Source: Oscillospiraceae bacterium
Lineage (GTDB): Bacteria > Bacillota > Clostridia > Oscillospirales > Acutalibacteraceae
Reading direction: 5' to 3'
DNA: 64,000 bases
Assembly (NCBI GenBank): GCA_910574935.1
Contig: CAJTCU010000008.1
Span: forward strand, 1 to 64,000
A program made the translations under genes and the position numbers. Shown piece by piece: positions 32,138 through 44,170 of this stretch (the stretch's first letter is position 1; every line of letters begins with the position of its first letter). The notes below the pieces were generated by a model, which was given only the letters and a program-made list of their open reading frames with translations, was not told the origin of the DNA and did no database searches.

Positions 32138-32222
32138 AGGGGCAAATTGGCGCCGGTGCTTGGAGAAAGATCCATTTTTAAAGGCGCTGGCAGGCAGAAA
32201 CAACAGGGAAAGTAGGGACAGC

Positions 32223-34295
32223 ATGACGGAGAAAATTCTGAACCTGGGCATTGTGGCCCACGCCGACGCGGGCAAGACCACCCTGACCGAGCAGATATTG
32301 TACCGCGCTGGGGCCATCCGCGCGGCGGGCAGCGTGGACCAGGGAACGGCCTCGACGGATGGGATGGCCATTGAGCGCCAGCGGGGCATTTCGGTGCGCA
32401 CGGCCTGCGCCTCTGTGCTGTGGCGGGGCGTCCGGCTGAACCTGATCGATGCCCCCGGCCACGCCGACTTCCTTAGCGAGGTCCAGCGCAGTCTGGCCGT
32501 GCTGGACGCGGCGGTGCTGGTGGTTTCGGCGGTAGAAGGCGTCCAGCCCCAGACCCGCCTGCTGCTGGAGGCCGTCCACCGGGCGCGGCTGCCCTGCTTT
32601 CTGTTCTTCAACAAGCTGGACCGGGCTGGTAGCCATTGGCGCCAGGCCCTGGCCCAGGCGGAGAAGGAGGCGGGCGGAGCCTGCCTGCCCCTGTGCCAGG
32701 TATCGGGAGAAGGGGAGGCGGGCGTGGCGGCCTCTTTTGTGGACGGCGTTTCTCCTGCCTGGGTGGAGCAGGCGGTACTGGCCTGCGGCGACGACCAGCT
32801 TTTAGAGAATTTTTTGGAGGAGGGTGCGCCCAGCGGCCTGGGCGGGGCGTTAAAAGCAAGGATTGCCCAGGGAGAGCTGTACCCGGTCCTGTGCGGGGCC
32901 ACCAAGTTTGGCCTGGGAGTAGACTTGCTGCTGGATGCTTTGGCAGAGCTGCTGCCCCAGCCCGCGCCCCTGGGCGGGGAGCTGTGCGCCCGGGTCTACA
33001 AGGTAGAGCAGGACCCCGCCCTGGGTAAGGCCGCCTATGTGCGGCTGTTTGCCGGGAAGCTGGGCAACCGCCAAGAGGTGACAGTATGCCGCCAGGAAAC
33101 AGAGAGCGGTGAACTTATACAAAAGAAAGAGGAGAATTCCCTGGAAAGGACCGGGCCGGAGGATGATTGTAGTGAAAATAGCCAGAAAGCCCAGCTGAAA
33201 AACTATGGGATGCGTCAAGCGGCCCAGGAAAAAACCACCCGGGTGCGCCGGGTGGAGGGACGGCGGCTGGAGGACGCGGAACGCATTGGCGAAAACCAAA
33301 TTGGCGTGGTGTACGGCTTGGGGTCCGTTCGGGCAGGGGACCTGCTGGGGCGGCCTTTGCCCGGCATGCGGGCTTATCATTTGACCGAGCCCCTGATGCT
33401 CTCTAAGGTAACAGCCCTGGACCCGGCCCAGCAGCCGCTATTAAACGAGGCCCTGCGCCAGCTGGAGGACGAGGACCCCCTGCTGCAATGCAGCTGGAAC
33501 CAGGAAAAGCGAGAGGTATGGGCCCGGCTGACCGGGCGCTTGCAGGTGGAAGTGCTGGAAGCTCTGCTGCGGGAGCGCTGGGGCGTGGACGCAAGCTTTA
33601 GTGAACCCTCGGTGATTTATAAAGAGACCCCGGCGGGGGTGGGAGAGGGGTTTGAGTCTTACACCTGGCCCAAGCCCTGCTGGGCGGAGGTGCGGTTTTT
33701 AGTGGAGCCGCTCCCCAGGGGCAGCGGGTTTCAGTATGAGTGCCGGGTGAGCCCAGGCCGGCTGCCCTACCGGTATCAGGCCCATGTGGAGACAGCGGTG
33801 CCCAGGGCCCTGGAGCAAGGCCTGAAGGGCTGGCAGGTGACGGACCTGAAGGTGACCCTGGTGGACGGCACCCATCATCATGTGCATACCCACCCCCTGG
33901 ACTTTTTTGTGGCCACGCCCATGGGGGTGATGAATGCCCTGCAAAGCTGCGGCACCAAGCTGCTGGAGCCTGTTTTGCGGGCGGAATTTTCCGGGCCGGA
34001 GGACTGCCTGGGAAAGGCCCTGGGGCTAATCTCCAACCGGCGGGCCAGCTTTTCGGCCCCCCAGGTGGAGGCGGGGCGTTTTCGCTTTGAAGCGGAGATA
34101 CCCGCCGCAGAGGCCATGGACCTGCCCGTGGAGTTTGCGGCGGCCACCGGGGGCCGGGGGGTGTACGGCTCGCGCTTTTCTCATTATGCCGACTGCCCGG
34201 ATGGCATGGGCGTGGACCGGGAGCGGATGGGAGTGGACCCCCTAGACCGGCCCAGGTTTATCCTGGCGGCGCGGCAGGCCCTGGCCGGGGAATAG
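32223..34295 (+). CDS. Tet(M)-like translation-factor GTPase (EF-G superfamily)
   Basis: A 690-residue ribosome-binding GTPase resembling tetracycline ribosomal protection proteins. The G domain shows AHADAGKTTLTEQ (G1), GSVDQGTASTDGMAIERQRG (switch I), DAPGHADF (G3) and FFNKLD (G4). Domains II-V follow, including KEPTVIY-like SEPSVIYKE and GWQVTDLKVTL. Two differences stand out. A ~50-residue charged insertion lies in domain II (about residues 300-350, GELIQKKEENSLERTG...). The domain IV loop that contacts the decoding centre in Tet(M), SPVSTPADF, reads HHVHTHPLDF here. It is therefore uncertain that it confers tetracycline resistance; it could be a housekeeping relative. No leader-peptide attenuator of the tet(M) type was seen. 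Confidence 0.85.
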   Translation: MTEKILNLGIVAHADAGKTTLTEQILYRAGAIRAAGSVDQGTASTDGMAIERQRGISVRTACASVLWRGVRLNLIDAPGHADFLSEVQRSLAVLDAAVLVVSAVEGVQPQTRLLLEAVHRARLPCFLFFNKLDRAGSHWRQALAQAEKEAGGACLPLCQVSGEGEAGVAASFVDGVSPAWVEQAVLACGDDQLLENFLEEGAPSGLGGALKARIAQGELYPVLCGATKFGLGVDLLLDALAELLPQPAPLGGELCARVYKVEQDPALGKAAYVRLFAGKLGNRQEVTVCRQETESGELIQKKEENSLERTGPEDDCSENSQKAQLKNYGMRQAAQEKTTRVRRVEGRRLEDAERIGENQIGVVYGLGSVRAGDLLGRPLPGMRAYHLTEPLMLSKVTALDPAQQPLLNEALRQLEDEDPLLQCSWNQEKREVWARLTGRLQVEVLEALLRERWGVDASFSEPSVIYKETPAGVGEGFESYTWPKPCWAEVRFLVEPLPRGSGFQYECRVSPGRLPYRYQAHVETAVPRALEQGLKGWQVTDLKVTLVDGTHHHVHTHPLDFFVATPMGVMNALQSCGTKLLEPVLRAEFSGPEDCLGKALGLISNRRASFSAPQVEAGRFRFEAEIPAAEAMDLPVEFAAATGGRGVYGSRFSHYADCPDGMGVDRERMGVDPLDRPRFILAARQALAGE

Positions 34296-34727: not shown

Positions 34728-37019
34728 ATGAAAACCATGAACAAGACTGCAAAGCGCGTTTTGGCGCTGGTGCTGGCTCTTATGATGATGGTCTCCGTGT
34801 TCGCGGCCTGCGGCAACGACAGCGGAAACTCTTCTACCAGCAGCACCCCGGAATCCTCTACACCCGAAAGCAGCTCAAGTGAGCCTGCCGGCAAGAGCAG
34901 CGAGGTAAGCGGCGAAGAGCCCAGCGACACTGCCTGGGAAGCTCCCCAGCCTCCTGAGGGAGACGACTATGACGCGATTTCTGATTACTACTACGATTAT
35001 ACCCTGGGCGATTTCTGGGCTATCTATCAGAACGCCACCGCCGAGGTGGACAACATGAGCCTGCGCTATGCCCAGGAGGCCATTGCCGAGGCCAAGCTGC
35101 TGGAGAGCGGCATTATGATGCCCACCACCGGTTACGGCGGCAACTACGCCATTAGCCGCGCGGTGCCTGGCTCTTTGACCACTCATGCTTTTGGCAGCGA
35201 CCAGCATCGTTTTCAGTACGCCATTGTGGCGGACAAGCTGGTGAAGAAGGAAGACCGCGACGAGGTTAAGAAAATCCTGAACGAGAACAAGGGCACTGGT
35301 ACTGCCCGCCAGAAGATTCAGGATTACCTCACCGGCGCGGGCTATCAGCTGATGGACAAGTACGTGACCACCTTCAGTGAGCTGCCCTCCACCTGGGACG
35401 TCCATAACTCCAGCTCTGCCTCTGACACAGAGCCTCTGGTCAAGACCATTGACGGCCTGCTGTTCTTTGACTGCGAGGACCGGGAGCTGCCCGCCCTGGC
35501 CGAGAGCTATGAGGTCAGCGAGGACGGCCTGACCTACACCTTCCACATCCGCAAGGGCGTGAAGTGGGTGGACTCTCAGGGCCGCGAGGTGGCCGAAGTG
35601 AAGGCTGACGACTGGGTAGCCGGCTTGCAGCACGCCGCCGACTGTGGCCAGGGCCTGGCCGACCTGTTCATTGGCATTCTGCCCGGCATTGAGGACTACA
35701 TCAACGGCAAAACCAATGACTTCTCTACTGTGGGCATTTCCGCTCCGGACGACTACACGCTGGTGTATACGCTGGAGAAAAAGGCCCCCTTCTTTACCAC
35801 CATGCTGCACTACAGCAATGCCCTGCCCATGTGCCGGTCCTATTATGAGTCTCAGGGCGGCAAGTTTGGCGTCGACTTCGATCCCGAGCCGGACAGCTAT
35901 CAGTACGCTTCTGACCCCGACCATATTCTGTACTGCGGCGCTTTCCTGATTACCAACGCCACTGAGGGCAACTCCATTGACTATAAGCTGAATCCTACCT
36001 ACTGGGACGCTGAGAATGTTACCATCAAAGAGTTTAAGTATATGTATAATGATGGCAGCGATGTGCTGAAGTCCTACAATGATACCCTGGCGGGCACCCA
36101 GACTGGCGCTGGCCTTAACGCTTCCGCTATGGCCCAGGCCAAGCAGGATACCCTGGAGGGTGACGCGGCCACTATTTTTGAGACCTATGGGTATGTGGCG
36201 TACCCCACGGTGACCACCTATGTGAACTTTACCAACGTGAACCGCCAGCGCTTTGGCAACTACACGGATGAGACCAAGGTGGTTTCTTCCCAGAGCGAGG
36301 AGGAGGCAGCCCGGACCCATCTTGCGATCAATAACCGCCACTTCCGCTTGGCTCTGGCTATGGCAGCTGACCGGATTGCCTGGAACGCCCAGAACGTAGG
36401 CGATGACCTGGCCGCTGTGTCTGTGCGCAACAGCTATACCCCCGCCACCTTCTGTGAGCTGGAGGAGGAAGTGACCGTTGATATTAACGGAACACCCACC
36501 ACCTTCCCGGCTGGCACGGATTACGGCGAGATCGTCCAGGCTCAGCTGGACGCCGACGGCATGAAGATTACCGTTTATAAGAAGGATCCCAACGCCGAGA
36601 ACGGCAAGGGCACCGGCGACGGCTTTGACGGCTGGTACAATCCCACTGAGGCGGCCGCCGAGCTGGAACTGGCCATTGCCGAGCTGGAGACCGCAGGCGT
36701 GACCATTGACGAGAACAACCCCATTCAGCTGGACCTGCCCGCTTTTGTGGGCGGCACCGTGTATCTGAACCGCGCCAACGCCTATAAGCAGAGCGTGGAG
36801 GCCAGTCTGGGCGGTAAGGTAACGATTAATATCACAGCTGCCGAGCAGCTAAGTGAGTGGTACGACGCTGTGTACCTCCCGAAGGTCGGTTCTGACATGA
36901 ACTATGACCTGAATGACTTCTCTGGCTGGGGCCCCGACTATCTGGATCCCTGCTCTTACCTGGATACCATGCGGCCCAACTACAACAGCTTCATGACCAG
37001 GACCTTGGGCATCTACTAA
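34728..37019 (+). CDS. oppA: Oligopeptide-binding lipoprotein, AmiA/OppA-like, apparently circularly permuted
   Basis: A 763-residue lipoprotein (lipobox VFAAC, Cys28, then a Ser/Thr/Glu-rich linker) that should capture oligopeptides for the importer encoded downstream. Residues from about 207 to the end match SBP_bac_5/AmiA proteins: IDGLLFFDCEDRELPALAES, GLTYTFHIRKGVKW, DFSTVGISAPDDYTLVYTL and DFSGWGPDYLDPCSYLD. In AmiA the last match is followed by ~140 further residues including a RYxxYAxAxxWLTDSSxxIPTT-like block. Here the protein stops soon after, and the equivalent (RYAQEAIAEAKLLESGIMMP, then SRAVPGS) is found at residues 113-149, before the normal N-terminal lobe. The simplest reading is a circular permutation. 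The ATG at 34728 follows AAAGGA; the ATG at 34737 is possible. Confidence 0.9.
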   Translation: MKTMNKTAKRVLALVLALMMMVSVFAACGNDSGNSSTSSTPESSTPESSSSEPAGKSSEVSGEEPSDTAWEAPQPPEGDDYDAISDYYYDYTLGDFWAIYQNATAEVDNMSLRYAQEAIAEAKLLESGIMMPTTGYGGNYAISRAVPGSLTTHAFGSDQHRFQYAIVADKLVKKEDRDEVKKILNENKGTGTARQKIQDYLTGAGYQLMDKYVTTFSELPSTWDVHNSSSASDTEPLVKTIDGLLFFDCEDRELPALAESYEVSEDGLTYTFHIRKGVKWVDSQGREVAEVKADDWVAGLQHAADCGQGLADLFIGILPGIEDYINGKTNDFSTVGISAPDDYTLVYTLEKKAPFFTTMLHYSNALPMCRSYYESQGGKFGVDFDPEPDSYQYASDPDHILYCGAFLITNATEGNSIDYKLNPTYWDAENVTIKEFKYMYNDGSDVLKSYNDTLAGTQTGAGLNASAMAQAKQDTLEGDAATIFETYGYVAYPTVTTYVNFTNVNRQRFGNYTDETKVVSSQSEEEAARTHLAINNRHFRLALAMAADRIAWNAQNVGDDLAAVSVRNSYTPATFCELEEEVTVDINGTPTTFPAGTDYGEIVQAQLDADGMKITVYKKDPNAENGKGTGDGFDGWYNPTEAAAELELAIAELETAGVTIDENNPIQLDLPAFVGGTVYLNRANAYKQSVEASLGGKVTINITAAEQLSEWYDAVYLPKVGSDMNYDLNDFSGWGPDYLDPCSYLDTMRPNYNSFMTRTLGIY

Positions 37020-37281: not shown

Positions 37282-38856
37282 ATGACAAAATATATATTGA
37301 AACGCCTCATTCATGGCCTGCTGTCCATTGTGGTGGTAGTGGGCATTGTGATGGTGCTGGTCTATACGGCGCTGAACCGGCAGTTAATTTTTGCCGCGGA
37401 CCAGAACTACACAAAACTGCAAAATAACGCCCAGACGGTGTATACCTACCGAAAATGGCAGGAATACGGCTATTTGGACTACGTCACCTACGCCGATTAC
37501 CTGACGGACCAGGTTCACCAGGGCAAAATGACCCCCGAAGAGCGGGAAGAGGCCATAGGCTTTGGCCGCAAGCCCGAGGACGACAGCGAGGTAGTGGCCA
37601 AGTACGTAAAGCAGTTTACCGAAGAGTACGAGAAAAAGGGCTTTACCGTGCAGCGGCTAAACGCCAAGGTCTCCCGGCGGAAGGTGGCCAGCGGCGGCGG
37701 CCAGCAGCTGTTTGCCCACCGGGACCGGCCCCTTATTTACCGGCTGATCTCTTACTTTGCCAGCATCCTTACAGTGGACAATATCCACTATGTGGACGAG
37801 GATATTGACATTGGGCCCCGGGGCCTGACCTTTACCTGGCACGACCCGGTGTACGGGAGCGAGAAGTTCTCGCCGGCCATTATTGGCAACGGCAGCCAGC
37901 ACAAGTACCTGCTCTATTTTGACAACCACTTCCCCTTTGTGCACCAGAATCTTTTGACCATCACCCTGGGTAAGTCCTACGCGGTAAACTACGGTGTGGA
38001 TGTTTTGCAGACCATGACCGTTACCCAGGGCGCTTACGTAATGAGCCCCACCATCTACCCCACGGGTTTGCGGGAGGACAGCGCCGATGACCTGCACACC
38101 GCGACCTATATGGAGAACTCTCGAGAGGCTACGCCTGTAACAGAAGCCCGGTATACCGACGACTATACCGTGGTAGTGAACGAGCGCAGCGGTAAATCGA
38201 AGATGGGATACTCCTTCTCCATTGGCATTTTGGCCACCTTAATGGCCTATGTGCTGGGCGTACCCTTAGGCATCTTTATGGCCCGGCATAAGGATGGCAT
38301 AGTAGACAAGCTGGGTACCGTGTATATTGTTTTTATTATCGCGGTGCCTTCCCTGGCCTATATCTTTATGTTCAAGGCCATTGGCGGCTCCTTTGGCCTG
38401 CCCACCACCTTTGACGTAACCATTAACAGTAAGCTGATGTATGTGCTGCCCATTGTCTCTTTGGCCCTGCCCTCTGTGGCCAATCTGATGAAGTGGCTGC
38501 GGCGCTATATGGTGGACCAGATGAACTCGGACTATGTGAAATTTGCCCGGTCCGGCGGCCTCTCTGAGAATGAAATCTTCTTTAAGCACATCTTTAAAAA
38601 CGCCGCCATTCCCATTGTCCACGGCATTCCGGGCAGCGTGCTCTTTGCGCTGACCGGCGCGATTATCACAGAGCGGGTTTATGTGGTGCCTGGCACCGGC
38701 AACCTGCTCACCTATGCCATTAATCAGTACGACAATGGCGTGATAGTGGGCGTGACCCTATTCTATGCGCTGTTATCCGTACTGTCTATTATTCTGGGAG
38801 ATGTGCTGATGGCTATGGTGGACCCGAGAATTTCGTTCTCCAGCGAGAGCAGGTAA
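37282..38856 (+). CDS. oppB: Oligopeptide ABC transporter permease, AmiC/OppB-like with large ectodomain
   Basis: First membrane subunit of the peptide importer, 524 residues. TM1 is at about 9-30. It is followed by a ~278-residue extracellular domain (31-308), then TM2 at about 310-333 and further helices. Ordinary OppB proteins are near 310 residues; streptococcal AmiC (about 500) has a comparable large external domain, so this is an AmiC-type subunit. The cytoplasmic coupling loop near NSDYVKFARSGGLSENEIFF contacts the ATPase. The C-terminus ends VDPRISFSSESR. It lies 17 bases before the second permease gene. Confidence 0.92.
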   Translation: MTKYILKRLIHGLLSIVVVVGIVMVLVYTALNRQLIFAADQNYTKLQNNAQTVYTYRKWQEYGYLDYVTYADYLTDQVHQGKMTPEEREEAIGFGRKPEDDSEVVAKYVKQFTEEYEKKGFTVQRLNAKVSRRKVASGGGQQLFAHRDRPLIYRLISYFASILTVDNIHYVDEDIDIGPRGLTFTWHDPVYGSEKFSPAIIGNGSQHKYLLYFDNHFPFVHQNLLTITLGKSYAVNYGVDVLQTMTVTQGAYVMSPTIYPTGLREDSADDLHTATYMENSREATPVTEARYTDDYTVVVNERSGKSKMGYSFSIGILATLMAYVLGVPLGIFMARHKDGIVDKLGTVYIVFIIAVPSLAYIFMFKAIGGSFGLPTTFDVTINSKLMYVLPIVSLALPSVANLMKWLRRYMVDQMNSDYVKFARSGGLSENEIFFKHIFKNAAIPIVHGIPGSVLFALTGAIITERVYVVPGTGNLLTYAINQYDNGVIVGVTLFYALLSVLSIILGDVLMAMVDPRISFSSESR

Positions 38857-38873: not shown

Positions 38874-39851
38874 ATGACAAAAGAATTGAAAAACCTAAAG
38901 GAGCTGGGCCTGCCCGAAGAGGAGCTGTTCTCCTTTGTGACACATAATGACACAGAAGCGGAGAAAATCACCGCGCCCCGGTACTCTTACTGGCACTCGG
39001 TATTTCGGGTATTCTTTAAGAATAAACTGAATCTCATTATTTTGGCGCTTTTAGTGGTTATCATTATTTTCGCCTATGTATATCCGTCAATGATTGAATA
39101 CGACCGTTTCGCAAACCTGACAGACTCCAGCGCCAAGCACCTGACGCCTTTGAAAGCTATGGAGAAGTTCGGGTATAACCTCCACTGGATTCTGGGCGCC
39201 GGCGCCCAGGGCGAACCCACCTTTGACGCCATGTGGGTGGGCTCCAAGATCTCCATCTCCCTGGCGCTGATCTGCGCTTTGATCAACATGTCCATCGGCG
39301 TGGTGCTGGGGGCCCTGTGGGGCTTCTCCAAAAAGGTGGACATGATCATGATGGAGGTCTACAACATCGTGGCCAATGTACCCTATATCCTGCTGATTGC
39401 CGTGCTGGTAATGACCCTTTCCGCCAGTTTTTGGACCATGGTCTTCGCCATGACGGTCACCGGCTGGCTGGGCATTGCCTACGCCATACGCATCCAGGTA
39501 ATTATTATTCGAGACCGGGAATATAACCTGGCCTCACGCTGCCTGGGCACCTCTCTATTCCGCATTGCTATTAAGAATATTCTGCCTTTTATGACTTCCA
39601 TTATCGTGACCATGGCCGCCACGGAGATCCCCTCTTACATTTCCTACGAGGTGTTCCTTAGCTATATCGGCATCGGCCTCTCGGATATGTCACTGGGCAA
39701 GCTGATCTTTGAGGCGGAGCCCGCCATGCTCACCAGCGGCTGGCAGTTTGAGTTCTGGAGCCCCGTGGTGCTGGCCTCTATCATTACCGTGGTGCTGTAC
39801 GTGGCTGGCCAAAACCTGGGCGACGCTTCCGACCCCAGGACCCATATGTAA
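38874..39851 (+). CDS. oppC: Oligopeptide ABC transporter permease, AmiD/OppC-like
   Basis: Second membrane subunit, 325 residues. A cytoplasmic N-terminus (LPEEELFSFVTHNDTEAEKI) precedes six helices. The coupling loop is REYNLASRCLGTSLFRIAIKN-like, close to the OppC pattern, and the C-terminus DASDPRTHM matches the NDALDPR-type end of this family. Genes are tightly packed: 17 bases after the AmiC-type permease and 12 bases before the ATPase gene. Residues 60-110 between TM1 and TM2 form a modest external loop. Confidence 0.92.
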   Translation: MTKELKNLKELGLPEEELFSFVTHNDTEAEKITAPRYSYWHSVFRVFFKNKLNLIILALLVVIIIFAYVYPSMIEYDRFANLTDSSAKHLTPLKAMEKFGYNLHWILGAGAQGEPTFDAMWVGSKISISLALICALINMSIGVVLGALWGFSKKVDMIMMEVYNIVANVPYILLIAVLVMTLSASFWTMVFAMTVTGWLGIAYAIRIQVIIIRDREYNLASRCLGTSLFRIAIKNILPFMTSIIVTMAATEIPSYISYEVFLSYIGIGLSDMSLGKLIFEAEPAMLTSGWQFEFWSPVVLASIITVVLYVAGQNLGDASDPRTHM

Positions 39852-39863
39852 GGAGGCGCCCCC

Positions 39864-41600
39864 ATGGAACAGAAAAAAGTATTGCTTTCGATTAAGGACC
39901 TAGAGGTCAAGTTCCGGGTGCGCGGACGCATCCTTACCGCCATTCGGGGAATTTCCCTGGATATTTACGAAAACGAGTCCATTGCCATTGTGGGCGAGTC
40001 TGGCTCCGGCAAGTCGGTGTTTACCAAGACCTTTGCCGGTATGCTGGATTCCAACGGCCTTATTGACCGGGGCAGTATTATTTTTAACGACGAGGAGCTG
40101 GCGGATACCCACGTAAAGCTGGCGGGCGCGGCCAGGAGTATCCTTGTTAAAGTGAAGAAAAAGCTGGATGAGTATTCCAAGCTGGAGCCCGGCGCAGCCA
40201 CTTTCCGGAAGATTGTGGAGCTGGAAAGTGAGCGCCGGCAGAAAATGGCTCTTCCCCCCCAGGAAGAGCAGGCCCACCAGGAGCGCCTGGAAGACCTGCG
40301 CTACCGGCGCGCCGAGGCCTTTAACCTGCGCCAGACCCTGAATGCCAAAGAGGACCAGGCCCGCTATAAAGAACTGGGCATGGAGATCAAGGGAATGGAT
40401 AACGAGCTAAAGCGCCTGGAGGAGGAGTATCAGGGAAAGATAAAGGCCAGCGCCGCCGCTGTGAAGAACAACGCCGCGTATAATGCCGCATACAACAAAC
40501 GCATGGAAGAGCTGAAAGCCCAGTATGCCAAAGAGACCGCCGCCGGGCCCAGCGCCGCTGCCCAAAAGCGCAACGAAGTGCTGGCCAAGGAGGTCTACCT
40601 TTCTGTGGGCCGCTATCCTTTCCACAAGCGGATGCAGCTGATTCACGGACTTTTAGGAGAGATCAAAAAGGCCATGGAGCTGGGCGTGGACCCTATGAGC
40701 GACGAAGTGTTTGCCAAAGTGGTGTTCCGGGTACGATACCTGGATGAAACCGCCGATACCCTGCATGGCACCTGCACCCTGGACCTGGCCAATGTTAAGT
40801 TTAGCAAGGACTGGGGGCAGATTCGCGGCCGGCGTATTGCCACAGTGTTCCAGGACCCCATGACCTCCCTGAACCCCATTATCACCATTGGCAAGCAGAT
40901 TACCAGTATCATTTTAAAGCACCAGAATTGCTCCGAGGTAGAGGCCCGCGCCCGTGCCATTGAGCTGATGCACAAGGTGGGGATTCCCAACCCCGAAGCC
41001 CGGTTTGACGACTACCCCTTCCAGTACTCCGGCGGTATGCGCCAGCGCATTGTAATTGCCATTGCCCTTTCCTGCCAGCCGAAAATTCTGATCTGTGACG
41101 AGCCCACCACGGCCCTGGACGTGACCATACAGGCCCAGATCATCAAGCTTTTGAAGGATCTGCAAAAGGAGTTCAACTATACCATTGTGTTCATCACCCA
41201 CGACCTGGGCGTGGTGGCCAACGTGGCCGACCGGGTGGCGGTGCTGTACGCTGGCCAGGTGGTGGAGCTGGGCCAGGTGGAGGAGGTATTCTATGATCCC
41301 CGCCACCCCTATACCTGGGCGCTGCTTTCCAGCCTGCCCCAGCTGGCCCAGCGGAACACCAAGCTATATTCTATCACCGGCACGCCCCCTTCGCTGTATA
41401 ACCAGATTGTGGGCGACCCCTTCGCCCCGCGGAATCCCTATTGCCTCAAGCTGGACACCCTGATGGAGCCCCCCATGTTCCCGGTAACAGAGACCCACTC
41501 TGCCAAAACCTGGCTGCTGGACCCCCGGGCGCCCAAGATTGAAAAGCCGGAGGCAATACAGGATATTCACGAAAAGCTGATGAAAGCTTTCAATATATAG
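39864..41600 (+). CDS. oppD: Oligopeptide ABC transporter ATPase, AmiE/OppD-like with a ~220-residue insertion
   Basis: One of the two ATPases powering peptide import. Visible elements are Walker A GESGSGKS (44-51), Q-loop [10 protein letters not shown] (from 329), signature YSGGMRQR (388-395), Walker B ILICDEP (408-414), H-loop His446 and the OppD tail ([21 protein letters not shown], ending LMKAFNI). The core reads like streptococcal AmiE (about 355 residues), but between [16 protein letters not shown] and [16 protein letters not shown] an insertion spans about 84-305. It is rich in Lys, Glu, Arg, Gln and Ala, with heptad-like leucines, and is predicted coiled coil, ending near a [13 protein letters not shown] segment. 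AAGGAGG precedes the ATG. Confidence 0.92.
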
Positions 41601-41613
41601 AGGAGGGCCTGGC

Positions 41614-42921
41614 GTGAATAACACAAAGACAAAAACAGAAACAGGCGCGAAAGTGCGCCATCTTCCCCCGCACGGCCCGATTGACGAAAACGGCCGGGAG
41701 GTGCTTTTGTCCATCCGCAATGTGGACATCACTTTTGGCAAAGGAGACAGCGCCGTACGGGCGGTGAAGGACGCGTCCTTCGACATTTATAAGGGAGAGA
41801 CCTTCTCTCTGGTGGGGGAGTCCGGCTCGGGCAAAACCACCATTGGCCGGGCGGTGATTCGGGTTAATCCCTGTGCCGCTGGTGAGATCCTCTATAAGGG
41901 CGTGCCCATTACCGGCAAGATTCCCCACTCTTTGGACCGGGAGGTCATCCGCAACATTCAGATGGTGTTCCAGGACCCGGCGGCTTCTCTTAACGAGCGC
42001 GCCACCGTGGACTACATTGTCAGCGAAGGGCTCTATAACTTCCACCTGTTTAAAAATGAAGCCGACCGGGTGGAAAAGGTGCGCAATATGATCACCGAGG
42101 TGGGGCTGTTGCCGGAACACCTGACCCGCTACCCCCACGAGTTCTCCGGTGGGCAGCGCCAGCGCATTGGCCTGGCCCGGGCCATGGTCATGGAGCCCGA
42201 GCTGGTGGTGGCCGACGAGCCCATCTCCGCTTTGGACGTATCCATTCGGGCCCAGGTGCTGAACCTGCTAAAGAAGTTCCAGCAGGAGCGGGACGTCACC
42301 TACCTGTTCATTGCCCACGACCTTTCCATTGTGCGGTTTATCTCAGACCGCATTGGCGTTATCTATAAGGGCAATATCGTAGAGATTGCCGCAGCGGAGG
42401 AACTGTTCAATTACCCGCTGCATCCTTACACCCGTTCGCTGATTTCCGCCATTCCCATCCCAGACCCCCAGCTGGAAAAGAACAAGGTGCTGTTTACCTA
42501 TGACCCCAGCGTACATGACTATTCGGTGGACAAGCCAGTGATGACGGATATTGGCCACAACCACTTTGTCTATGGCAGCGCCAAGGAGATCGAGGAGTAT
42601 CAGGCCATTCGTGAAAAGGGCGTGCCCATTAAGTCCATAACCATCCGCGACGCGGATGCTCCGGAAGAAGAACCGGTAGAGGAGCCGGTGGATACCAGCG
42701 CCATCCTTAGTGCGCCCATCCATGATACGGGCAATATTTGGTACACGTTCTTTTCCCTGCTTCTGCCCATTATCGGTATCATTGCGGCAGTACTGTTCCG
42801 GAAGAAGAATTATATCAAAAACTACCGGGCCTGTGTGAAGGGCGCAAAGGCAGGATTCATTATTATAGGTGCCATTATAGCGCTGTTCCTCATTCTGCTG
42901 CTTTTGGCTGTTGTGCTGTAG
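41614..42921 (+). CDS. oppF: Oligopeptide ABC transporter ATPase, AmiF/OppF-like with C-terminal membrane helices
   Basis: The partner ATPase. Walker [12 protein letters not shown] (68-78), Q-loop [17 protein letters not shown], signature FSGGQRQR (177-184), Walker B VVADEP (198-203) and H-loop His235 are intact, followed by the OppF end block ([24 protein letters not shown]). Normal AmiF/OppF proteins stop at about 310-330. Here a further 105 residues follow: an acidic linker (EEEPVEEP) and two hydrophobic helices (about 374-395 and 412-434) separated by a basic loop. The GTG at 41614 has AGGAGGG seven bases upstream. The tail would anchor the ATPase in the membrane. Confidence 0.92.
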
Positions 42922-42922
42922 C

Positions 42923-44170
42923 ATGGGCCGAAACGCGAAGGAACGGAGAAGCCCGGCCCCCCGGCCAGTGGAAAAGGTGGAGGTAAACGAGCGGCATATT
43001 GGCCGAAGAACCGTGCTGTTTTTTGTGTGCCTAACAGTGGCCCTAACCAGCCTGGGATATGGGGTCTATATGCTGCTTAGTGCAGAGCCTGGCTGGACCC
43101 GGATTGAGAGTGGAGGCAGTGGGTTCAGCACGGAAGAGGACTTTACTTTTGAATATCTGGTGTCCCAGGGCGGACTTTCCGGCAGCGATGAGCTGCGGCA
43201 GGTGCGCGGGCTGTACACCCAGCTTTTAGCCAACGCGCATATGCTGTTTAGCGCGGATGTCCAGCCAAAAGAGCCAGACGTACACAATATGTGGTATATT
43301 AACAGCCACCCCAACGAGGAGATAGAGGTGGACCCTCTTCTCTACCAGGCTTTTTCCATGTTGGAAGAGGCAGGAAATCGTGGGGTATACTTGGGCCCTG
43401 TGTATGAGCTGTATACCGACCTGTTTTTTGCCCAGGACGCCCACGAGGCTGCTCTGCTGGACCCCTGGCAGGACCCGGATATGGGCCGCTTTTGCCAGGA
43501 GGCGGCTGACTATGCCCAAAGCCCAAACCAGGTGAACGTAGAGCTCTTAGGGGAAAACCGTCTATGTTTGCGTGTTTCAGAAGAATACAGGCGTTTTGTG
43601 GAAGAGAACGGCGCCACAAAATATGTGGATTTTTACCGGCAAAAAAACGCCTTTATCCTGGATTATTTTGTAGAAGAGCTGGCAAAGGCAGGGTTTCAGG
43701 AGGGGGTGCTTTCCAGTGCCGACGGATGTGTTCGCTGCCTGCCGGGGACCAGTGCCGGTACGGTTTTCAACCTGCTGGACTGGCGTCAGGACCAGGCCGT
43801 GGCAGCGGCACAGGCTCCCTTTGACCAGCCGGTGGCCTTGGTGTATATGCGCAGTTTCCCGGTGGGGGAGAGGGACCAGGGGTGGTATCAACCAGTGGAA
43901 GAGGGAGTGTTTCGCCACCCCTACGTGGACATTGCGGACGGCAGGTGCCGCGCCGCGGCCCGTTCGTTGGCAGTGTATGCCCCGAAGGGCTCTTGTGCGC
44001 AGCTGATGCTGGCCGCGGAGCCGGTGTTTATTGCCCAAGACCTGGACCTGGCGGCCCTTTCGGGCTGCAAGGCTCTGGCGGTGACAGGAGAGAGCCAAAT
44101 CCTCTCCACAGATAAAGAACAGCGGCTGGAAAATATCTATAAAGGATATAGCCGAAAGGATGTACCATAA
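42923..44170 (+). CDS. Membrane-anchored protein of unknown function, last gene of the peptide importer operon
   Basis: About 415 residues. A basic N-terminus and one TM helix (about 29-51, VLFFVCLTVALTSLGYGVYMLL) are followed by a large extracellular domain. I do not recognise the family with certainty. Stretches such as EIEVDPLLYQAFSMLEEAG, LYLGPVYELYTDLFF-like text, and KNAFILDYFVEELAKAGF are weakly reminiscent of ApbE-type FMN transferases, but the ApbE metal and flavin motifs are not evident, so this is only a guess. The ATG is two bases after the oppF stop, with no spacer for a strong ribosome binding site, suggesting translational coupling. A terminator follows. Confidence 0.7.
   Translation: MGRNAKERRSPAPRPVEKVEVNERHIGRRTVLFFVCLTVALTSLGYGVYMLLSAEPGWTRIESGGSGFSTEEDFTFEYLVSQGGLSGSDELRQVRGLYTQLLANAHMLFSADVQPKEPDVHNMWYINSHPNEEIEVDPLLYQAFSMLEEAGNRGVYLGPVYELYTDLFFAQDAHEAALLDPWQDPDMGRFCQEAADYAQSPNQVNVELLGENRLCLRVSEEYRRFVEENGATKYVDFYRQKNAFILDYFVEELAKAGFQEGVLSSADGCVRCLPGTSAGTVFNLLDWRQDQAVAAAQAPFDQPVALVYMRSFPVGERDQGWYQPVEEGVFRHPYVDIADGRCRAAARSLAVYAPKGSCAQLMLAAEPVFIAQDLDLAALSGCKALAVTGESQILSTDKEQRLENIYKGYSRKDVP

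Follow-up and report, generated by a model that had tools for sequence, protein, structure and literature searches.

The closest described relatives of the protein considered here are AmiA and AliA-AliD, the oligopeptide-binding proteins of cluster C (PF00496; PMC11192437). According to the domain limits set out for AliD in that paper, domain I is made up of residues 29-63, 191-296 and 583-617, domain II of residues 64-190 and domain III of residues 297-582, with domains I and II forming lobe 1 and domain III forming lobe 2; helix alpha-19 spans residues 622-652. The pair W498/D501 binds the peptide by holding its N-terminus (PMC11192437). In the pneumococcal transporter, the permease AmiC has 498 residues with a long N-terminal part, and this outer part has been modelled wedging between the two lobes and resting on lobe 1, with AmiD touching lobe 2 (PMC11192437).

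A natural circular permutation of a substrate-binding protein has been described for TpMglB-2 (Tp0684) of Treponema, a glucose-binding lipoprotein of cluster B for which the name cluster Bc was proposed (PMC4990184). This was the one natural permutation of a substrate-binding protein found in a search of the open literature, and no natural permutation of an OppA/AmiA-type protein was among the matches listed (titles and abstract openings, with few subscription journals or preprints). A permutation in cluster C would be new by this measure, natural permutation of a substrate-binding protein as such being already known from the account of TpMglB-2.

The window analysed here is a stretch of 64,000 nucleotides of DNA from an Oscillospiraceae bacterium (contig CAJTCU010000008.1). 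In it, the gene of a peptide-binding lipoprotein heads an operon of the Opp/Ami type (Table 1). The initial annotation had proposed that this protein is a circular permutation of AmiA/OppA, based on a comparison with AmiA. That likeness is borne out by phmmer and profile searches against the PDB, which return AmiA, AliB, AliC and AliD.

Table 1. Positions in the window of the permuted binding protein, its parts and the operon genes downstream of it.
Feature	Position	Strand	Description	Basis
Circularly permuted AmiA/OppA-type oligopeptide-binding lipoprotein	34728..37019	+	763 aa	ORF; Pfam SBP_bac_5; two exchanged stretches against AmiA
Signal peptide and lipobox	34728..34811	+	Lipobox VFAAC (residues 24-28), predicted lipidated Cys28	Sequence
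Linker	34812..34976	+	Residues 29-83, Ser/Glu/Pro-rich	Sequence
Transposed C-terminal segment	34977..35342	+	Residues 84-205: end of domain III, last part of domain I, helix alpha-19 equivalent, start of new connection	Segment profile against PDB; hhalign with shuffled controls; normal-built profile
N-lobe to WGPDYLDP block and new C-terminus	35343..37016	+	Residues 206-763: domains I, II and most of III	phmmer against AmiA; hhalign E 6e-111
OppB/AmiC-type permease	37282..38856	+	524 aa; long N-terminal part followed by BPD_transp_1 (Pfam) at residues 326-518	
OppC-type permease	38874..39851	+		Profile matches; operon position
OppD-type ATPase	39864..41600	+	578 aa, extra stretch inside ABC domain	NF043079
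OppF-type ATPase	41614..42921	+	435 aa, longer than in normal-order loci	Profile matches
Divergent ApbE-like protein	42911..44170	+	Last operon gene; one N-terminal hydrophobic stretch, then about 370 aa	

A phmmer search of the whole protein against the PDB sequences aligned residues 215-757 to positions 19-505 of the AmiA chain (8a42_A) and residues 95-188 to positions 526-623, and the same exchanged pattern of two stretches was found for AliC, AliB and AliD. The second stretch is weak when a single sequence is searched (i-E values of 0.0033 for AmiA, 0.055 for AliC, 0.25 for AliB and 40 for AliD). A profile of the segment (A6; residues 84-205, 32 rows) was searched alone against 177,635 distinct PDB sequences. 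Just five matched at E <= 10, being AliC (1e-13), AmiA (7.7e-12), AliD (7.2e-10), AliB (4e-9) and DppE (0.097). All five matches fall in the C-terminal part of the chain, with positions 9-115 of the 121 in the segment aligning to AliC 519-630 of 633. By these matches residues 84-205 are homologous to the C-terminus of AmiA, the matching stretch running from about residue 88 to about 195, and the possibility raised at the outset that the front of the protein is an unrelated domain is not borne out. The counterpart of the helical AmiA segment had been placed at residues 113-149 and is indeed there, starting with RYAQ at residue 113 and reaching SRAVPGS at residues 143-149.

Comparison by hhalign gave the same arrangement. 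The segment (36 rows) scored 116.7 against columns 544-642 of a 656-column profile built from 25 normal-order relatives, with scores of no more than 22.1 in 100 column shuffles and 16.4 when reversed. The rest of the permuted protein aligned to columns 67-530 of the same profile, leaving 13 columns between the two and no overlap. A second copy of the segment was not seen within the permuted protein, the segment scoring just 13.3 against the rest of it.

The order of the parts is consistent in both directions. With profiles built from the normal-order proteins, the C-part precedes the N-part in all 36 permuted proteins, and with profiles built from the permuted proteins it follows the N-part in all 25 normal-order proteins, each part being present once in every case. 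In the window protein itself the normal-built profile matches residues 96-189 (E 4.5e-16 for one sequence). Some of the 25 normal-order rows are nearly identical to one another (L017 and L019, for example); L105, which is cut by a contig end, the partial L020 and L002-L010, which are other proteins from the window's own genome, were excluded. As had been proposed, all parts thus occur once and in changed order.

The lengths of the chain ends agree with this. The bulk of the protein, said in the initial annotation to follow AmiA/OppA from about residue 207 as far as the WGPDYLDP block and then to stop, matches from residue 206 to 763. Every one of the 36 permuted proteins stops 20-23 residues past the WGPDxxD block, and every one of the 25 normal-order proteins 123-150 residues past the matching block. 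An additional C-terminal segment in the normal place was found neither in these lengths nor by hhalign or the order profiles; the segment with the end of domain I and the helix alpha-19 is present once, at the front.

Sequence comparison confirms that the open reading frame at 34728-37019 encodes an AmiA-type protein with about 100 C-terminal residues moved to the front. An AmiA-type protein is defined by the linear order of N-lobe, domain III and C-terminal segment, and with this order exchanged in 36 of 36 proteins the protein is a permuted variant rather than a regular AmiA-type member. The initial annotation did not note the conservation of the permutation across a clade.

Automatic annotation can overlook a permutation of this kind. 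The Pfam family SBP_bac_5 matches residues 255-752 with 128.4 bits against a cut-off of 32.4, placing the protein in the family, and the match stops at position 364 of 368 in the model, near the WGPDYxDP block, so that the missing C-terminus is invisible in the Pfam annotation. All 32 rows of A1 match SBP_bac_5 at E <= 0.001 and contain no other Pfam family. Since the model covers the middle of the protein and stops at the WGPD block, the 32 proteins that were scanned look ordinary. Among solved structures, the relatives identified by sequence are SBP_bac_5-type binders of peptides, nickel, heme and similar substrates, with AmiA and AliC the best. The window protein does not belong to the cluster B (type I) sugar-binding fold. 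It differs from TpMglB-2, which has that fold. Natural circular permutation of a lipid-tethered substrate-binding protein, read in the window protein from the order of its sequence, is common to a group of relatives in both cases, so far as TpMglB-2 is described in PMC4990184.

The mycoplasma Opp system (NF043077 to NF043081) was also considered, as a similar transporter whose OppA might be permuted. This was rejected, as positions in the NF043077 profile show the normal order. Segment fragments match at positions 783-888 of 896 in four of the five proteins tested (E 7e-7 for L048, 2.3e-6 for L011, 0.0013 for L054 and a weak 0.06 for the window protein), the fragment of L012 having no match to this profile, and the N-part fragment of the window protein matches positions 49-127. 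The C-termini of the normal-order L059 and L063 fall in the same region as the segment fragments. The mycoplasma OppA model, unlike the permuted proteins, has the segment at the end and the N-part at the start.

Permuted proteins were collected from 34 genomes, including that of the window and carrying ten family codes, and from two MAGs, one labelled Oscillospiraceae (L011) and one labelled Acetatifactor (L012), making 36 in total. Full-length permuted homologs are present in 9 of 300 genomes drawn from the family, again including the window's own; 12 genomes matched at 1e-30, and the other three hold normal-order relatives. In the order they are present in 24 of 394 genomes (cut-off 1e-40), in the class in 5 of 391 (13 matches at 1e-60, eight of them in normal order) and in the phylum in 2 of 299 (7 genomes matched at 1e-60). 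The four draws overlap and each is a sample of a larger group. A scan of viral contigs gave no relative. It was also considered that a normal AmiA might be present in the same genome as the permuted protein, and this was rejected. None of the 14 other matches there (E <= 0.001) is of AmiA-like strength, 12 of them lying within residues 2-118 of the query, which are mostly signal peptide and linker, and two being short N-lobe matches (220-384 and 240-292).

A quick maximum-likelihood tree was made from the N-part of 36 permuted and 25 normal-order proteins, and in it the permuted proteins make up one side of a single branch (SH-aLRT 98). Closest to them among the normal-order rows are L059 and, from one genome (G1311), four AmiA-like proteins; the group of these and the permuted proteins has a support of 100. 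The tree was drawn with a midpoint root rather than an inferred one, and it includes a long row, L059, as well as seven rows whose composition is unusual. The normal order, being that of the PDB proteins as well as of the 25 normal relatives, is taken as ancestral. A single origin of the permuted form fits this tree, and the route was probably a partial duplication, or a fusion of neighbouring binding-protein genes, followed by trimming.

When the segment is moved back to the end, the alignment of permuted and normal-order proteins (8 and 10, respectively) runs through. The break lies in a loop between the stretches '..LG(F/I/L)' and '(D)(E)Y..L', and the length of this loop varies among the normal proteins. 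In the normal-order L059 (genome G891) the sequence at the breakpoint, GYYLKAMGLG...VGLLDYDKL, resembles both of the new ends in the permuted proteins, which makes this protein, long-branched as it is on the tree, a useful reference for the break.

By homology, the start of the segment falls near AliD residue 534 and the new C-terminus near AliD residue 525. The positions of the AliD chain in the PDB searches are 25 below the numbering of the published description, so that W473/D476 are W498/D501. Both new ends would then lie within domain III, that is in lobe 2, as compared with the chain start of AliD in domain I of lobe 1, if the domain limits given in PMC11192437 apply. With the new ends mapped to AliD domain III, the tether is expected to enter at lobe 2, a placement that comes from homology and not from a model, and the lipid tether would have shifted there from lobe 1. 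The suggestion in the initial annotation that the tethered side may change is supported by this mapping onto the AliD domain limits.

The linker is longer as well. The lipobox pattern was found in 33 of the 36 permuted proteins, which are predicted to be lipoproteins; of the remaining three, two are truncated by contig ends, and the pattern misses the LCACG of L011. From the cysteine to the segment there are 55 residues in the window protein and a median of 53 (18-87) in the 33 permuted proteins. From the cysteine to the N-lobe there is a median of 15.5 residues (6-42) in 24 of the 25 normal-order proteins, L107 having no lipobox match and standing outside this count.

Aside from the order of its parts, the lobe-2 tether predicted by homology and the longer linker, the permuted protein resembles AmiA and AliA-AliD as they are described in PMC11192437. 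It is homologous to them over all parts, including the C-terminal segment with the alpha-19 equivalent, it is a predicted lipoprotein, and it has the same W..D block for the peptide N-terminus. The AliD pair W498/D501 aligns by phmmer with W734/D737 of the window protein, in a WGPD motif that is kept in all 36 permuted proteins. The nearest normal-order proteins on the tree are likewise AmiA-like. The permuted protein should therefore work like an AmiA-type receptor.

Taken together, the results make it very probable that a cluster C lipoprotein of the AmiA type has here undergone natural circular permutation, with the segment refolding in cis, the tether attached to lobe 2 and the protein serving as a working Opp receptor. 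The circular permutation itself is established at the level of sequence. The old chain ends, the C-terminal helix and the first strand, which are both in lobe 1, would have been joined by a short connection; new ends would have been opened in the loop past the WGPDYxDP block, and a lipoprotein signal and linker placed ahead of the new N-terminus. The segment would then refold in cis at its usual site, completing domains III and I. By the AliD mapping it contributes part of domain III, the last part of domain I and the alpha-19 equivalent, and is therefore expected to be needed for the fold. The family, the kept WGPD residues and the operon suggest that the protein may still close on oligopeptides and pass them to an OppBCDF transporter, in which case it would work as an ordinary oligopeptide receptor with a longer linker tying lobe 2 to the membrane.

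Structure prediction adds little to this. AlphaFold2 models made with 15 rows (mean pLDDT 60.3, pTM 0.45) and with 3 rows (mean pLDDT 44.5, pTM 0.35) are too poor to judge the docking of the segment, probably due to the small number of input sequences. The four top matches of the 15-row model in Foldseek were AliC, AmiA, AliB and AliD, at TM-scores (by query length) of just 0.25-0.28, too low to build on. Given the quality of the models, we infer both the docking in cis and the position of the tether.

It is conceivable, though improbable, that the front segments are instead exchanged between two molecules, each completing the fold of the other in trans as a domain-swapped dimer. The related AliC has been reported as such a dimer in the crystal and in solution, but the swap described involves whole lobes rather than this segment (PMC11192437). 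By homology, the alpha-19 equivalent and the first strand would be connected within lobe 1, which makes closure in cis the simpler interpretation.

Another reading is that the front segment is the C-terminus of an upstream binding protein that became fused to a truncated copy and is unused in the fold, so that the fusion would be damaged or only half functional. Such a protein could plausibly arise when tandem genes fuse, and the poor models cannot show docking. However, the segment is kept in all 36 proteins, with a mean column identity of 53% in A6 (32 rows), the same as in A1 (32 rows). The block of residues 84-205, comprising the segment plus the beginning of the connection, hardly varies in length, at 121-124 residues across the 36 proteins. 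This conservation and constancy, along with the uniform chain ends past the WGPD block, argue against a useless segment and make this reading very improbable. That the order is an assembly or frame artefact of the window genome, a draft of 109 contigs, is a negligible prospect, as the same order is found in 35 further proteins (33 other genomes and the two MAGs), each in one open frame.

If the circular permutation with a lobe-2 tether is correct, the receptor would be anchored at the opposite lobe during its docking and opening on the permease, and these proteins would provide a natural test of whether the position of the tether has any bearing on the hand-over of substrate. The comparison would be a clean one, within the same family and with the same kind of transporter, the lipid being on a different chain end. 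It also concerns a permutation in cluster C that is common to many species and can still be read by sequence.

The adjacent OppBCDF-type genes putatively form the joint transporter of the permuted receptor. Outside the window, 17 permuted loci were read, and genes for OppB, OppC, OppD and OppF are downstream in all of them; in two (L011 and L012), the stretch ends within OppF. The long N-terminal part of the permease is shared with AmiC as described in PMC11192437. Seven of eight normal-order loci have an OppB open frame of 319-349 aa, and the eighth (L087) has one of 498 aa; this locus and the 498 residues of pneumococcal AmiC indicate that a long OppB is not unique to the permuted kind. The OppD open frame is 347-399 aa in all eight normal-order loci. 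For OppF, open frames of 436-475 aa are found in 12 of the 15 longer permuted loci and of 319-359 aa in the other three (L071, L078 and L079); in normal-order loci they are 314-349 aa in seven, the eighth being cut.

The enlarged OppD and an ApbE-like last gene distinguish this operon from the Ami system. Residues 7-574 of the window OppD match positions 1-557 of 561 in the mycoplasma OppD model NF043079, with 697.1 bits, below the cut-off of 740, and the model covers the extra stretch; the window OppC is also similar to its mycoplasma counterpart (320.2 bits, the cut-off being 370). The fit of OppD to a mycoplasma model is nearly end to end, though the relatives found are clostridial. When NF043079 was searched in the phylum, 13 of 398 genomes matched at 1e-140. 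Just two of these, the window's own and G680, match over positions 1-557, and in the other 11 the match starts from about position 291.

The ApbE-like gene is at the end of the operon in 14 of the 15 longer permuted loci (not in L080) and in that place in none of the eight normal-order loci, one of which is cut before it. The ApbE family PF02424 is weakly matched by two of 15 members of the last-gene family (best E 0.0011), and the copy in the window has no Pfam match above chance, to PF02424 or otherwise. The best PDB match of the last-gene family profile is 1vrm, TM1553 (E 0.019), which we take to be an ApbE homolog. The last gene may encode a degenerate FMN-transferase-like partner of the peptide importer. 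We would suggest only tentatively, with somewhat more doubt than belief, that the clostridial peptide importers with a lobe-2-tethered receptor, long OppB, enlarged OppD and ApbE-like outer partner form a separate importer class.

Upstream of the operon, positions 32160-34295 of the window encode an elongation-factor-G-like GTPase of 711 aa with the EF-Tu GTP domain and EFG domains III, IV and C, a set that presumably also fits factors of the ribosome-protection type.
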